Made by a program: the position numbers and the translations under genes | Source: Rhizophagus irregularis | Taxonomy: Eukaryota; Glomeromycota; Glomeromycetes; Glomerales; Glomeraceae | Assembly: GCF_026210795.1 (NCBI RefSeq) | Contig: NC_089448.1 | Span: 682,001 to 746,000, forward strand | Direction of reading: 5' to 3' | Length of the DNA stretch: 64,000 bases | In this document: in pieces, positions 34,939 through 41,675 of the stretch | How positions within the stretch are numbered: position 1 is the stretch's first letter | How the letters are laid out: every line of letters begins with the position of its first letter | The notes under the pieces: generated by a model | Database searches by the model: none | Seen by the model: the letters and a program-made list of their open reading frames with translations, nothing else | What the model was told of the DNA's origin: nothing

Positions 34939-37900
34939 ATAAAATTAGAGAAAATTTATTCCTCACCCGGGTGATTACTCACCCCCTATATATTATTAGT
35001 ATTTATTCACGTGCTTGTGTAATAAACTATAATAAATTTGATTGGAACTTACGCGTTTGTATTATAAAATAAACAGTATAAATTATAAGCCACAGTCACG
35101 CGTTTTTCACATACATGCTACATAATACGCACCGTAATAGTATTTGCTCTTGCATGTTCTTTGCTTTTTGTGCTTGGTTAATCATGTTATATGAGGTTTC
35201 ACCTTTTACAGAACCCACCAATCATGATGATAATAGTGAGGAATATGTTGTTAAAAGTGTATTAGGTGCCGAACTTAAAGATTATGTTGGTGGCTTTCCG
35301 TTAATTAATACTCTAATCGAGATTGAGAATGGAACAAGGTTTCATTCCATGGAAATTGCAGTACATTTTATAGAACAGTACGCTCTTCAGAATAATTTTG
35401 CTGTCTTTAAGCATAAAAGTGAAAAATTTCCGGATGGTACTTGTAGAAAAAGGGTATTTAAGTGTGATTTAGGAGGAAGGTATACTGAGAAGCTTTTAAG
35501 GCCAACATTAGGTAAAGAAAAAAGTAAAGGAACCAAAAAACAGGGCTGTATGTGGCAAATGAATGTTAATAGACGAATAAATTCACCCATAGTAACTGTA
35601 ACGTTATTTAATAACGAACACAATCATGAGATTCTCACCGATACCATAAAATTCTCCACTTGTTACAAAAATTTTACTGAAGAAATTATGGAACAGATAG
35701 AATTTTATGTTGTGCATGGCCGATGTGATGCAGGAACAATTAGGAATCTTCTTAACTTGATAAGTATCCCGATCGTGTATTTCTTACCCAAGACTTGGGA
35801 AATGCAATTCAAAAGATCAAACAAGAAAAAGGCCTTAATAATTTAGGAGATGCAGCATCTTTATTAATGAGACTTCTTGAATTGCAAGCAGATGATCCTG
35901 CATGGTTTGTAAAGCCGTTAATAGATGATACAAGTAACCGGCTAATTGGTATTTTCTGGATGTCACCAGAACAATGTGAAAGATGGTCTAAATTTTATGA
36001 CATTATTATCCATGACAATACTGCGCGAACTAACAAGTATAACTACCCATTAAGTCTCTTTATTTTAATTGATAATTATAACAAGAGCAGGTTGGCGGCC
36101 CAAGCCTTCATACAAGATGAAAAACAAGAATCTTATGAATGGTTGCTTCGATGTTGTCTTGAAGCATGTGAAATTCCTCCATTGACATTTGTTACTGATG
36201 CCGATCCTGCCATGATTGCAGCCATTTCTACAGTATTTCCAGAAACTCATCATATGCAATGTTTATACCATCTTTACCAAAATCTTCCAAAAAATCTTCG
36301 TTCATGCTTAGGATCACCTCTTTATCAAGAGTTTCTCAAAGATTTTAGGGCAATCCAACGTTATCATTGTGAAAGTGTATTTGAACGCCGGTCTGCAGGT
36401 ATAGTTGAAAAATATGAAGCAGGGAAAAAATATATAACTACAATGCTACTAAATAGAAAACATACGTGGGTAAAGTGTTTTACATCAAGGCATTTCACAG
36501 CGGGAACACAATCCACACAACGCGTAGAATCAGAAAATGCGTTGATACAGAAGGCTGTACAGTCAAGTTTTTTTCTTTCACAAGTTCAAGAATCAATTGA
36601 AAATCGGCTAGAATTTGAGTTGATTAACAATCGTTATTCAATTTGGAAATCCTCAACATTACAGTATACACAACCCTTTGTTATTCTAACGTTTTTTAAA
36701 GACATTGATATTACCATGAAAAAGTATCTCACTCAACCAATTCATGATGCACATTATAAGCAGATGTGCCAATCTGTATGTTATCGTACACATCAAGTAC
36801 CATTTTCCGAAATTTCAGCATCAGATGACGATTCATTTGAACCTTTTTTTGATAAAGAAGTAGATGATTCTATTGAAACACCTATTGAAGCTGATGAGGA
36901 TCGGGAACTTGACTTAAAATCCTTGATTTCAATGGTTAACTCAGACGATATTTTAGAAATTTGGAAGGTCTCTCGGTATAATTTTCCGAAGTGTTATCAA
37001 CATGTGATTTTGCTTAATACCAGAGAATATTTATGCACTTGTTTCATGCTTGTAACGCATGGTATTATATGCAGACATTTTTTTAAAGTGTTTGTTGAAA
37101 CTCCTAAAGCATATTTTCATTTGGTGTTGATTCCCAAGCATTGGTATAAAGATGAATATATCACTTCAAGTGATATCTCTTCTAGCGAAATAATAATGAA
37201 TAGTTGCCAAAATGATCAAAATAATACACAAATCACTTTAGAATTTACGCGAAAATATACTGTAAATGATCTTTCAGAGAGCTATTCCAGGCAAATATCA
37301 CAAAAACAATTGAAATTTGGTACTTTAATGGGTGAAGCCAAAAAGGCAATTCAATTTGCGATTCAAGATGATGATGAAGAACTAATTCAGTTTATAAGAG
37401 AATATAACAAAAGAAGGGAAGCTCAATTAATTCAAGCAGAATCAATTAGACAACAAGAAGATTTAGCAAGAAGAAAAATGATTGCAAATGATAATCGAGT
37501 TTTTCATAATACAAGGGGAGTATTGGTTGATTCTAATCAAATAATGGATCCGTTAAAGCATCAACCAAAGGGTAGACCCGCAACGAAGCGGTTAAAATCA
37601 TCTTTTGAAAAATCAGGTTCAAATAAAGTCAAAAATGGGAGTGAACAAGCAATTTCTGGTGATAAAGGTCGTAAGTGTGGTTTATGTGGAGAAAACGGTC
37701 ATTATCGTAATACTTGTTCAAAACAATAATGAACTTTACATAATCACATGTTTATAGCGAAGATTATTTTGTATTTTGTTTAGTAGTAGTGCGATACAAT
37801 TCAATTGTTACGTTTATTTGGCGAAATCAAACAATAAAGATTGATCAACAATATGTATATATTTGGCATACAATAAATATAACTTTATTTTTTTTTTATA

Positions 37901-38012
37901 TATAATATATTATAAAACGCATATAAATACATAACAAAAAATAAAAAAATTTTTAGGGGTGAAGAATATTAAATCTCACCCGGGGTGAGGAATAAATTCA
38001 CCCATAAAATTA
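34939..38012 (+). mobile_element. MULE DNA transposon with transposase, near-complete
   Basis: The element spans about 34948-38003 and is flanked by the 9-bp direct repeat ATAAAATTA at 34939-34947 and 38004-38012. The terminal inverted repeats share AATTTATTCCTCACCC and then GGGTGA. The ends hold a CACCCGGGTG palindrome. It carries one transposase reading region in the plus direction (35115-37729), broken once by a frame change. The 9-bp duplication and MULE transposase agree with Mutator superfamily membership. The AT-rich setting means the duplication could partly be chance, but it fits both ends at equal distance from the conserved TIR core. Confidence 0.8.
35115..37729 (+). pseudogene. 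MULE transposase with one frame break
   Basis: Two overlapping frames cover one transposase: 35115-35846 and 35795-37729. The change of frame falls near 35765, where the text passes from RNLLNL to YPDRVFLTQDLGNAIQ. The first part has a FAR1/WRKY-GCM1-like zinc region (FKCDLGG, GCMWQMN, NNEHNHE). The MULE core has the catalytic triad in HDNTARTNKY (D), VTDADPAMIAA (D) and RVESENALIQKAV (E). A SWIM zinc finger (CTCFMLVTHGIICRHFF) and a CCHC knuckle (CGLCGENGHYRNTC) end the protein. The first start is uncertain: an acceptor-like TTTTACAG precedes the conserved text, so a short upstream exon is possible. An unspliced intron is an alternative to a real frameshift. Confidence 0.85.
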
Positions 38013-38229
38013 TATCTCTGATAACTTTATAAATTAATCAATTTTGCTCATATTTTATTATTTATTACTGAATATTATTTATTTTTTAAAAAAAAGTAAT
38101 ATAATATATTAAAGTTTAGGGAATTGCTAACCGTCGCCTGGGCGATTGTCGCCTGGGTTTTTTTTTCGAATATGTCACATGATGTATAATATATAAATAT
38201 AACTATTATCCATTTATAATTATTATTTT

Positions 38230-38310
38230 GCTCAGTTAGTTCAGTGGTTAGAACGCTCGATAAATTTTTTTTTTATCTTAGAAACGCAGGTTCGATTCCT
38301 GCACTGGGCC
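38230..38310 (+). tRNA. tRNA-like gene in left TIR (atypical anticodon arm)
   Basis: This 81-nt sequence has an acceptor stem GCTCAGT/ACTGGGC (7 bp, one G-T pair), a D arm TAGTTCAGTGGTTAGAAC that fits the Pol III A box, and a T arm GCAGG-TTCGATT-CCTGC that fits the B box. The anticodon region is odd: GATAAA/TTTATC closes a seven-T loop (formal anticodon TTT), with extra bases on both sides. A terminator-like T run follows at 38316-38321. It may be a tRNA turned into a transposon part, and need not be charged. Confidence 0.6.
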
Positions 38311-38512
38311 TTTAATTTTTTCAAATTTTTCATCGTTTCAAACTTTTGTTTGGATTTGAGTTTGAACTTTGAATTCTGAATAACGCGCATTCATTTAATA
38401 AATTGTTACGCATTTAATTACAATCAGAAGTTACATGTTTAATCATAAATGCATTTTCAATTCTTTATTAAAACAAACGATAACAATTTGCTATCCTAAA
38501 ATTCTAAACTAA

Positions 38513-41223
38513 TCATTTTGTAAGTCGTTTAGATTTAGGCTTCTTTAGATTCGTTTTAAGTTCGCACCTACGTGCATTATGTCCAATGCCTTTACAGTGA
38601 CTGCATACATACTGTGATCGTTGAGTACTAGCAGATCCACTTGACTTTTGCTTTTGATTATCATCTAATGCATTCTTTATACGCTTTCTTGGAGCACCTT
38701 TTGTACGCGTCTGATAAGGGTTGCTAATATTCGGCAAATTTTCTTTGTTGATCTCCAGTTGCCTAGAACGAGTTTCATTTTCCTTCTCTCTTATCCACCT
38801 TTGCAACATTCCATTTAATTCGTCTTCACAGCCTATTTCAAGGGCTAGTCCAATTGCTTTTTTCGTGTAGCCAAAACCTTGATTATATTTGGCTTTGTGA
38901 GATAAATTTTGCTTGGCAGTTTTCAAAAATGCTTGTGTATGGCGAATCTCATGTAATAGGCTAAAATCCGTTCTAATTTGATGTTCATACGTGGGGTTGA
39001 CAGTGTTCTTTTCGCTGTAAATTGCGATTGCAGGTTTTTCTTGAAAATCGGGAAATTTTTCATTGTACCATCGATCTGAAATGAGTCCGATATGAAACAT
39101 AGCCTTATCCGAATTGAGCATCACTGAAAAGAAATGTCGACAAACTAATCCTCTCGCTACAAGCCACATGCATGTACACAAGTGATTAGCATTATCATAT
39201 ATCACCACGAAATGCTCTTTGTTTTGTTTAATTGTTGTTACACGCCAAACCTCATGAACGTTAGCATGATTAAGATATGTAATTAGAGCATGTAGATTGA
39301 TTATTGATGATTCATAGTCGTCTTCAGGAAAATTCAACTTTTCAGATCGTGTATCAACATCATCTTGCTCTTCATCATCAGATTGTTCTTCGCCATCAGA
39401 TTGTTCTTCATCATCGGATTGTTCTTCATCGTCGGATTGCTCTTCATCATCAGATTGTTCATCATCATCATCACCATAATCACCATCTTCACCATCTTCA
39501 CCATCTTCATAATCTTCATCATCTTCACCGTCTTCATCTTGTCCTTCGCCAACAGTAATCTAGGTAGAAAATAGAATAAAAATGTTGTGTGATTTGCAAG
39601 AAAATGCCAATATTTTACGATTTATACCCCATTTTCGAGCAAATCATTCCAATCCTCTACTCTATTTGCACGATAAAGTAAACTTTCATTCATTTGATTG
39701 TGTTGCATCTTTAAAACACGAGGGGTAAGAAATTTTTTGATGATGACGTCTATTCTTTTAAAGTACCTCCCGACAACGTTCGGCAAACCCACTGTTGGAT
39801 TTTGATTTGATTGTTCATGCTGTTCGAATTTTTCTTCTTTGTTGAGAAGTGACTGAATATGTGTATCCAATTCAAACAACGTTGCTGAACTTTTGACCGA
39901 TCGTTTAATTAGCGAATTATAACCTTCAACGCGTTAAGTTGACTGAATTCCTGCATTGAATGATCGACTAGTATGGCATAATGCTTAGCTAGTTACAACT
40001 TGTCCAAGTGCACGCTTTAGGTATTTTTTTGCTGCCGGAAAGCCAGTAAGAAGTTCACGCCATCGTTTTTGAAATTTATACTCTGAGAAGGAATTCTGGC
40101 ATTTATTCCATGCTTTCACAAATTCATTGTAATTTTTACGAAGCCGACCTCTCAAATTTTTGTCAAGGTTTTTGCGCAGGTGCCAGATACAGTAATTATG
40201 TTTTGTTGATGGCAGTATTTCATGAATAGCTGAAACTATCACGGGGTCTGCATCAGTGAATAAAACATTTGGCGCAAGATTGTCTGTGGCAGACAGTAAA
40301 CATTCCAGAATCCATTGATAGGTCTCTTTAGTTTCGTCTGAAACAATGGCAGTTGTGACCATACGCGAGCGTGCATGATTATCTACAACTATAGTAAGGG
40401 ATAGATACATTCGATATTTATTTGTTTGCGATGTATTATCATTAATCGCAACATCGTAAAATCTACGCCACAGTTCTATCTGCGATGGTCTCATCCAGAA
40501 AAGACCTGTAAGGTGGTTGTCTTCGCCTTCCAGCCTCACTTTGACAAACCACCCGTGTTCTTCACGCTGTAATTTCATTAATTTTTCAAACGTTTCGGCA
40601 GCATCTGATTTTGATTTATTCTGAATGTTCCAAAAGCGACAAATCGCATTATATACGTACTTTGGATGTATTACTGTTTCAGGGAAACATTTTTGAAGTG
40701 CGCGGATAATTGAACCTGCTCCACAACCAATATTTACGAGAAATTTGATCTCCTCAAGAATTTCTGGACTGAGTTGACGATTTGATACGAAATTTTTTTT
40801 TTCAAGAGAGTGGTTATGTTCGTTGCATAGTGAGGTAACATATACGAGGTCACCAGTGAGCCGAAGATTAATATTCCAGGGACAATTCATTCTTACACTT
40901 TCACGTTCACAGGTGTCTTCTATGTCAGCTTTCTTTTGTGCACGATATACTCCTGAAAACTTGCACTTAAAGGTTCGACGTACAATCTCTCCTTTGTTTT
41001 TCTCAAGCCGAAACTTCTTTACTTCAAAGCCATTATTTTTTGCACAGTATACAACTTGTTTTTCGGCAAAGTCCCAGCTTTCAAACACATCTCCAACCTC
41101 AAGGACAAATAACACACAATCTTCTTCACTAGACACACTTTCATATTCATCTTGTAGCTCGTTAACGTCATCTATCTCTTCATCTGCTGAGGAGTACACC
41201 TCAAAAAGGTGACGCTTATGCAC
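38513..41223 (-). pseudogene. MULE transposase with two in-frame stops
   Basis: Coding sequence runs from 41223 to 39628, then an intron (GT at 39627 to AG at 39560), then 39559 to 38513. Two stop codons at 39985-39987 and 39934-39936 interrupt the first exon. The second stands in ...QST-stop-RVEGYNSL, where the family has Gln. Parts in order: acidic N-terminus, FAR1-like zinc region (FKCKFSG, NCPWNIN, CNEHNHS), DDE core (NDNTSQTNKY; FTDADPVIVSA; RVEGYNS), an acidic EQSDDE repeat block (39360-39460), SWIM finger (CTCMWLVARGLVCRHFF) and CCHC knuckle (CSHCKGIGHNARRC). Apart from these stops the frame is intact, so loss of function looks recent. A His-rich ORF on the plus strand here is a shadow of the acidic repeats. 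Confidence 0.88.
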
Positions 41224-41483
41224 ATTATCTATTTGATATTTCTATTTTGTAACTCTGTGCTTTGTGATAGAGAAAAGTGATTAGTTTTGGATAAATGATT
41301 AGTTTGGATAAAGAAGTTTGTTTTCTCTTGCCGATTTTGGCATTAACAGTACGCTTCTAGTGTGCAGCATGCTGTGTAATACAATAATACGTGATATCGT
41401 GATATATCATATGATCATTAGTATTCATAACGTACTAACGCGTTTTTACACGTGGTATTATATCGTTAACGAAAAAAATTAAA

Positions 41484-41564
41484 GGCCCAGTGCAGGAATC
41501 GAACCTGCATTTCTAAGATAAAAAAAAAATTTATCGAGCGTTCTAACCACTGAACTAACTGAGC
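41484..41564 (-). tRNA. tRNA-like gene in right TIR
   Basis: The inverted copy of the tRNA-like sequence at 38230-38310. It differs by a single base, C to T, just before the T stem (AAAC to AAAT), outside the acceptor, D and T stems. The same seven-T loop and terminator-like T run are present. Confidence 0.6.
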
Positions 41565-41675
41565 AAAATAATAATTATAAATGGATAATAGTTATATTTA
41601 TATATTATACATCATGTGACATATTCGAAAAAAAAACCCAGGCGATAATCGCCCAGGCGACGGTTAGCAATTCCC

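Follow-up and report, generated by a model that had tools for sequence, protein, structure and literature searches.

The stretch of Rhizophagus irregularis DNA analysed here (64,000 nucleotides, hereafter the window; C20:682001-746000 of a searched genome of 146.7 Mb in 32 contigs) contains a Mutator-like element (MULE) of 3,557 bp, both terminal inverted repeats (TIRs) of which end on the inside in a complete tRNA-like gene. Full or eroded forms of this module occur in three further MULE families, always pointing inward and, in the ends whose outer TIR was seen, on the inner side of the TIR. The parts of the module are retained unequally, with preference for the T-arm. We hypothesize that a gene transcribed by RNA polymerase III (Pol III) was captured by a MULE lineage and may be kept for the recruitment of TFIIIC and Pol III to the TIRs, a boundary function being the most likely use. 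This reading is tentative, at somewhat less than an even chance, and TFIIIC binding, transcription and boundary function at the TIRs are to be taken as putative throughout.

The left TIR (38119-38321, plus strand) lies on the 3' side of the transposase gene and the right TIR (41473-41675, minus strand) on its 5' side, as delimited by repeat search and BLAST. BLAST aligns the arms over 203 nt at 99.015% identity and hence with two differences, as originally predicted; the repeat search returned 204 nt at 99%, including one flanking base per side. Each arm holds a tRNA-like gene of 81 nt that reads inward, at 38230-38310 (plus strand) and 41484-41564 (minus strand). Rfam RF00005 assigns 47.9 bits to both genes (gathering score 29; E 3.7e-7 and 3.8e-7), which is far above a random covariance score. 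Independently of Rfam, ARAGORN calls a tRNA in both TIRs, whereas none of 2000 dinucleotide shuffles of the left TIR yields one. According to RNAfold, the cloverleaf is the minimum-energy structure of the left copy (-21.9 kcal/mol, z -2.5), with 4 of 200 shuffles being equally stable. The original prediction of a tRNA-like gene at the inner end of both arms is borne out by these results.

Both window genes possess the acceptor, D and T arms of a cloverleaf. The standard anticodon-arm spacing and fixed anticodon of a decoding tRNA are missing. In the left copy the anticodon arm is replaced, as predicted, by a six-pair GATAAA/TTTATC stem with a seven-T loop, which is part of the minimum-energy structure and is separated from the D stem by 4 nt and from the T stem by 8 nt; the middle region also varies among families. 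Because the middle arm is rebuilt and set off by these linkers, a decoding role appears unlikely, and the isotype label "Lys-TTT" is meaningless with such spacing.

The consensus sequences used for the internal promoter elements are TRGYNNARNNGG for the A box and GGTTCRANNCC for the B box. In the left TIR the A box (38237-38248, plus strand) has one mismatch, and the B box GGTTCGATTCC (38289-38299, plus strand) is exact; motif comparison places the same B box GGTTCGATTCC at 41495-41505 (minus strand) in the right TIR. A run of six T resembling a Pol III terminator follows at 38316-38321 (plus strand), and its last T, 38321, is the final base of the TIR, so that the TIR boundary falls just past the terminator as proposed. 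The window ends thus have the layout of a type II Pol III promoter, with A box, B box and T6 run in order. A CACATGA motif and TATATAAATA were read from the sequence at 38176-38199 (plus strand), and visual inspection showed similar motifs in the ends of other families. TATATAAATA sits 31-40 bp upstream of the tRNA-like start (-40 to -31); it is TATA-like and may have a promoter role.

The element itself, referred to as family A, spans 38119-41675 with the transposase on the minus strand. Its N-terminal and catalytic parts are encoded by an open reading frame (ORF) of 412 aa (39985-41223, minus strand) with a PF10551 MULE domain (E 6.9e-20; 71.8 bits, cutoff 27.6) and a FAR1 domain, PF03101 (E 1.1e-9). 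The middle piece of 85 aa (39622-39879) and the C-terminal piece of 274 aa (38513-39337), both on the minus strand, gave no match in the Pfam search; the order of transposase pieces is identical in the C26 and C2 copies, and a CCHC-like knuckle is visible in the translation of the C-terminal piece. The transposase domain PF10551 and the long TIRs (203 bp, 99%) place the element in the MULE superfamily. Target-site duplications were looked for in six elements, with AT-rich flanks that ease chance matches. They are perfect over 9 bp at the exact ends of C2 (family A) and C11 (family B). C23 shows a perfect 10 bp once one end is shifted by 4, C31 shows 8/9, and the window copy (best 8/10) and C15 have no convincing duplication.

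A genome search with the TIR, in which 40 of 159 candidates were scored, listed 41 matches: 7 full-TIR ends, 1 degraded end (C32), 5 ends of family B, and 28 rows at 27 places that match up to TIR position 80 only and have no tRNA. The full-TIR class is partly circular, as the query itself contained the module. The 7 family A ends derive from five elements (window, C2, C26, C24 and C28), each with family A transposase pieces beside it; for C26, C24 and C28 the 3' TIR alone was seen within the approximately 10 kb examined. The C2 copy has tRNA-bearing ends on both sides together with its perfect 9-bp duplication, and its tRNA-like genes hence moved with the element. Genomic copies of this MULE whose TIRs stop before the tRNA had been named as a finding that would refute the original prediction. 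The module is present in 7/7 TIRs found beside family A transposase pieces, and on this side the prediction stands; on the other side are the 27 outer-only places, which match within the outer TIR core (38119-38198, plus strand). The repeat at these places matches the family A outer TIR over 80 bp at most, with 89-97% identity. Five of the 27 were examined and show neither a tRNA-like gene nor a match to the transposase of family A or to that of the MULE next to it in the window; most pairs among them share approximately 350-700 bp, one (L045) only approximately 95-145 bp. These five belong to another repeat, without recognised transposase. All family counts given here are lower bounds, based on DNA and pattern searches.

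Searching the genome with a T-arm pattern gave 38 matches and the reversed-pattern control 0. Seven matches belong to family A, 9 to B, 1 to C and 3 to D (together 20 MULE ends), 1 is D-like (C17), 16 belong to a family of array-borne tRNA-like genes, and 1 is an orphan half at C20:3347461. The ends on C25 and C1 have extra mismatches, lie outside these 38 and were found in separate searches. A chance likeness to tRNA or an assembly artefact might be suspected in an AT-rich region with many short inverted matches. This explanation is refuted, and its probability practically nil, by the Rfam E-values near 4e-7 for both genes, the failure of all 2000 shuffles, the T-arm control and the copies elsewhere with perfect 9-bp duplications. 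Insertion of a short interspersed nuclear element (SINE) is not supported either: the dispersed copies outside elements that it implies are not borne out, 36/38 T-arm matches being MULE ends or array-family genes.

The original claim that both MULE ends hold a Pol III-type gene can thereby be extended to full or eroded modules in families B, C and D. Family B (C9, C11, C15, C23, C31) has an outer TIR unlike that of A, and its four transposases are approximately 29-30% identical to that of A over 350-385 aa (C31 only piecewise, 24-33%). The four B copies with transposase carry a complete module at the 3' end and an eroded one at the 5' end, the latter retaining the T-arm, the acceptor 3' strand and the T run; at C9 a single complete end was seen, with no transposase. 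In family C (C10 and C25, one end seen in each) the module is complete, and its middle stem, GAGTAA/TTACTC, differs. The outer TIR of C25 resembles that of B (68%); C10 adjoins MULE transposase relics, and its outer TIR was not recognised. Family D (C22, C19, C1, C13) combines a GGTGAATTTATTCC-type TIR with an eroded module. Its transposase, approximately 30% identical to that of A over aligned parts, was seen at C22 and, by coordinates, at C1, with the eroded module at the 3' end in both. The C1 element has a module at its 5' end too, with a D-arm remnant; the B box is exact at this end and has one mismatch at the 3' end, and the 5' end shares 69% identity with the 3' end of C22. C17 has a D-like module half with no outer TIR in view. 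For the C22 element (L112:2825-3574) no second end appeared in the 4 kb read, and an ORF of another kind lies beyond the transposase. On C13 (C13:3004010-3004141 and C13:3005271-3005388), approximately 1.1 kb of other sequence separates the outer TIR of a D-type end from the tRNA half.

The closest relatives of the module that were found are 15 array-type tRNA-like genes, and not the 53 ordinary tRNAs compared. The former, tandem or scattered on C12, C5, C7, C15 and C29 (C12:154-157 kb, 581 kb and 874 kb; C5:5189 kb; C7:3631 kb; C15:4537 kb; C29:2948 kb), have an arm identity to family A of 0.85 on average and 0.92 at most. They differ from the module in the middle, which bears variable hairpins, and in the T stem (GCGGG, not GCAGG). 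No MULE end was recognised in the stretches examined around them (mostly approximately 400-1,050 bp; approximately 10 kb at two loci). Their acceptor, D and T arms are near-constant and their anticodon is not; this group may represent either atypical tRNAs with introns or a family of Pol III RNAs that do not decode. At C1:6431000-6431250 there is the 5' half of a tRNA-like gene, in which the D arm is of the array type and the T-arm is degraded. The ordinary set came from the best 63 of 7670 candidates, which gave 60 matches, of which 54 were fetched and 53 called by ARAGORN; none of these 53 is an Ile, Phe or Asp tRNA, and none matches the arms at more than 40/56 positions. Descent from an ordinary tRNA was rejected on these grounds, although an ordinary parent may lie outside the set. 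In a tree of approximately 52 sites the 14 full modules cluster (72% ultrafast bootstrap), which weakly suggests a single origin.

What the ends retain was compared for 15 module ends against the window left TIR; with this reference, 16 of the 24 known ends are covered (4/7 A, 6/9 B, 2/2 C and 4/5 D, C17 being left out). T-arm identity is 0.82-1.00 in 15/15 ends. In the 12 B, C and D ends the D arm reaches 0.42-0.79 and TIR positions 1-40 reach 0.00-0.65, the zeros being shorter B 5' ends left unaligned through free end gaps. For scale, 300 shuffles of one D end gave maxima of 0.76 for the T-arm and 0.79 for the D arm. Of the B boxes in these 16 ends, 9 are exact, 6 have one mismatch and 1 has two, as against three to four mismatches in four module-less control ends. 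The idea in the original prediction that the module serves as insulator or for expression would fit this preferential retention of the T-arm.

The same retention might also be expected if the tRNA 3' half were a second transposase-binding site within the TIR, with the Pol III machinery uninvolved. MULE TIRs bear transposase binding sites and promoters (PMC3310237), and BLAST confines the similarity between near and far B ends to two blocks, the outer approximately 40 bp and the stretch from T-arm to T run, as in a bipartite site. However, the T-arm is kept in families whose transposases are only approximately 30% identical (B and D versus A) and whose outer TIRs differ, which would be odd for co-evolving contacts, and related MULEs must have moved without the module. 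This explanation appears improbable to us. Because the B and D transposases are so dissimilar to that of A, the common site is better explained by a host factor that the families share than by a transposase of common type.

Alternatively, the TATA-like box and the A and B boxes could drive a Pol III or mixed Pol II/Pol III transcript, either for the transposase or as a tRNA-like regulatory RNA. The position of TATATAAATA would suit such a promoter, as would the compared full modules of A, B and C, which have at most one mismatch in the A box and at most two in the B box; three of them, one from each family, fold into cloverleafs with z -2.4 to -2.5. However, the unit stops with the T6 run at the TIR boundary, short of the transposase, which Pol III would therefore not reach, and the unit in the 3' TIR reads against the transposase gene. 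Two eroded ends that were folded (one B 5', one D 3') give no tRNA. A role of the module mainly in producing such a transcript is therefore, in our estimate, a slim prospect.

Our preferred model, recruitment of TFIIIC and Pol III with a boundary function, may be outlined as follows. A MULE lineage would have captured a Pol III-transcribed tRNA-like gene related to the array-borne ones, and this gene would have been built into the inner edge of both TIRs, pointing inward. Descent or exchange among MULE families would then have brought the module into A, B, C and D. Mainly the T-arm would be kept, as the B box for TFIIIC, together with the stretch as far as the terminator. The A box is present as well in A and in the full B and C modules, which makes a short Pol III transcript that stops within the TIR plausible. 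B boxes are bound tightly by TFIIIC, and both tRNA genes and ETC sites that have only a B box can serve as TFIIIC-dependent barriers (PMC12409998). TFIIIC, with or without Pol III, at both ends could hence act as a boundary which either keeps the promoters of the TIRs open within a methylated genome rich in repeats or prevents read-through. MULE-MuDR elements of R. irregularis that are expressed and down-regulated in spore development have a median CG methylation of 12.5%, below average (PMC8647823). In a broader and more doubtful form of this model, several MULE families would use the tRNA-like TFIIIC/Pol III promoter as a standard and exchangeable part of the TIR, which provides a host-factor boundary at both ends and so a single chromatin or expression device common to dissimilar transposases.

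Several observations weigh against this model. Subfamily A2, whose transposase comes closest to that of family A (67% identity; open frame on C21), has by eye a related outer TIR, but no module is present in the two end stretches examined. In the window, a neighbouring MULE with short D-type TIRs and a 644-aa ORF (34953-37998, plus strand) serves as a contrast case: over 471 aa its transposase shares 68% identity with the one of the C22 D element, and no tRNA-like module was found in it. Including this neighbour, 8 places match the D TIR solely in the outer approximately 50 bp. The presence of the module is thus patchy, through either repeated loss or exchange among families. Copies are decaying, for example with broken acceptor or T stems in C2 and C28. 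The four families do not amount to four independent cases, because the outer TIRs of B and C are similar. Retention is not specific to the B box, the acceptor 3' strand (0.57-1.00) and the T run (0.58-1.00) being partly kept; the T run and both acceptor strands are of little informative value, because the 300 shuffles of the D end reach 1.00 for the T run and the acceptor 5' strand and 0.86 for the acceptor 3' strand. Among 12 of the 14 full modules no covariation supports the cloverleaf or an RNA function: one pair is changed on both sides (matched by 436/500 shuffles), and the pairing of 96% is equalled in 228/500 shuffles. The published methylation figure is not for families A-D. Because covariation is absent and the two folded eroded ends form no tRNA, a role of the T-arm block at the DNA level would seem to be favoured.

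The strongest rival to our model builds on this patchiness and erosion. A tRNA-like gene may have been trapped by chance and copied with the TIR units as a functionless passenger, recombination among MULEs accounting for its presence in several families. MULEs do capture host sequence (Pack-MULEs; PMC8647823), A2 and the neighbouring MULE carry no module, and the clustering of the 14 full modules is as expected from exchange of one captured copy. However, a passenger should decay evenly, yet four B copies and the C1 D element keep the T-arm block at each of their two ends, where the 5' part and the outer TIR differ; orientation and position are likewise common to the families. We hence consider a mere passenger rather unlikely, though deserving of serious attention.

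A third use in the original prediction, targeting to the vicinity of tRNA genes, is not supported: besides the elements' own, ARAGORN finds no tRNA in 10/10 A and B loci of approximately 10 kb or in the 64-kb window. In R. irregularis, no other transposon family is as well represented near expanded genes related to signalling as the MULEs, which are also found near eight Argonaute genes (PMC8647823). If the ends do contain TFIIIC sites, an inserted element could place a Pol III unit or a chromatin boundary beside host genes. This would offer a testable reason for the low methylation reported for some MULE-MuDR elements of this fungus, and would be a case of transposon families that share a host-factor module rather than a transposase site.

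Several known systems invite comparison. tRNA-derived SINEs are mobile sequences with a tRNA-related internal Pol III promoter, a likeness they share with the present module; the module differs in lying at the inner edge of MULE TIRs and does not resemble a dispersed SINE. The array-borne tRNA-like genes of R. irregularis share its acceptor, D and T arms and differ in the middle region, the T stem and the lack of a recognised MULE end nearby. ETC sites and tRNA-gene insulators have a B box, whether or not a usable A box accompanies it, and in this they resemble the eroded ends described here (PMC12409998); here the B boxes are inside mobile-element ends, and TFIIIC binding is putative. Dada transposons, DNA transposons likewise linked to tRNA genes, target tRNA and snRNA genes and have subterminal repeats that resemble a piece of their U6 or U1 target (PMC3706591). 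In contrast, the tRNA-like gene is here part of the element and moves along with it, and no insertion near tRNA genes was seen in 10 loci. No description of a tRNA-like gene within MULE TIRs was found in the literature searched. Compared with other MULEs of the Mutator type, the window element agrees in the PF10551 transposase with FAR1 domain and in TIR length, which is typically 100-500 bp (PMC3310237), and its relatives C2 and C11 agree in their 9-bp duplications; it differs in that each of its TIRs terminates in a whole tRNA-like Pol III gene. The parts are thus known, and within the literature searched it is their combination, and its repetition across families, that looks new.

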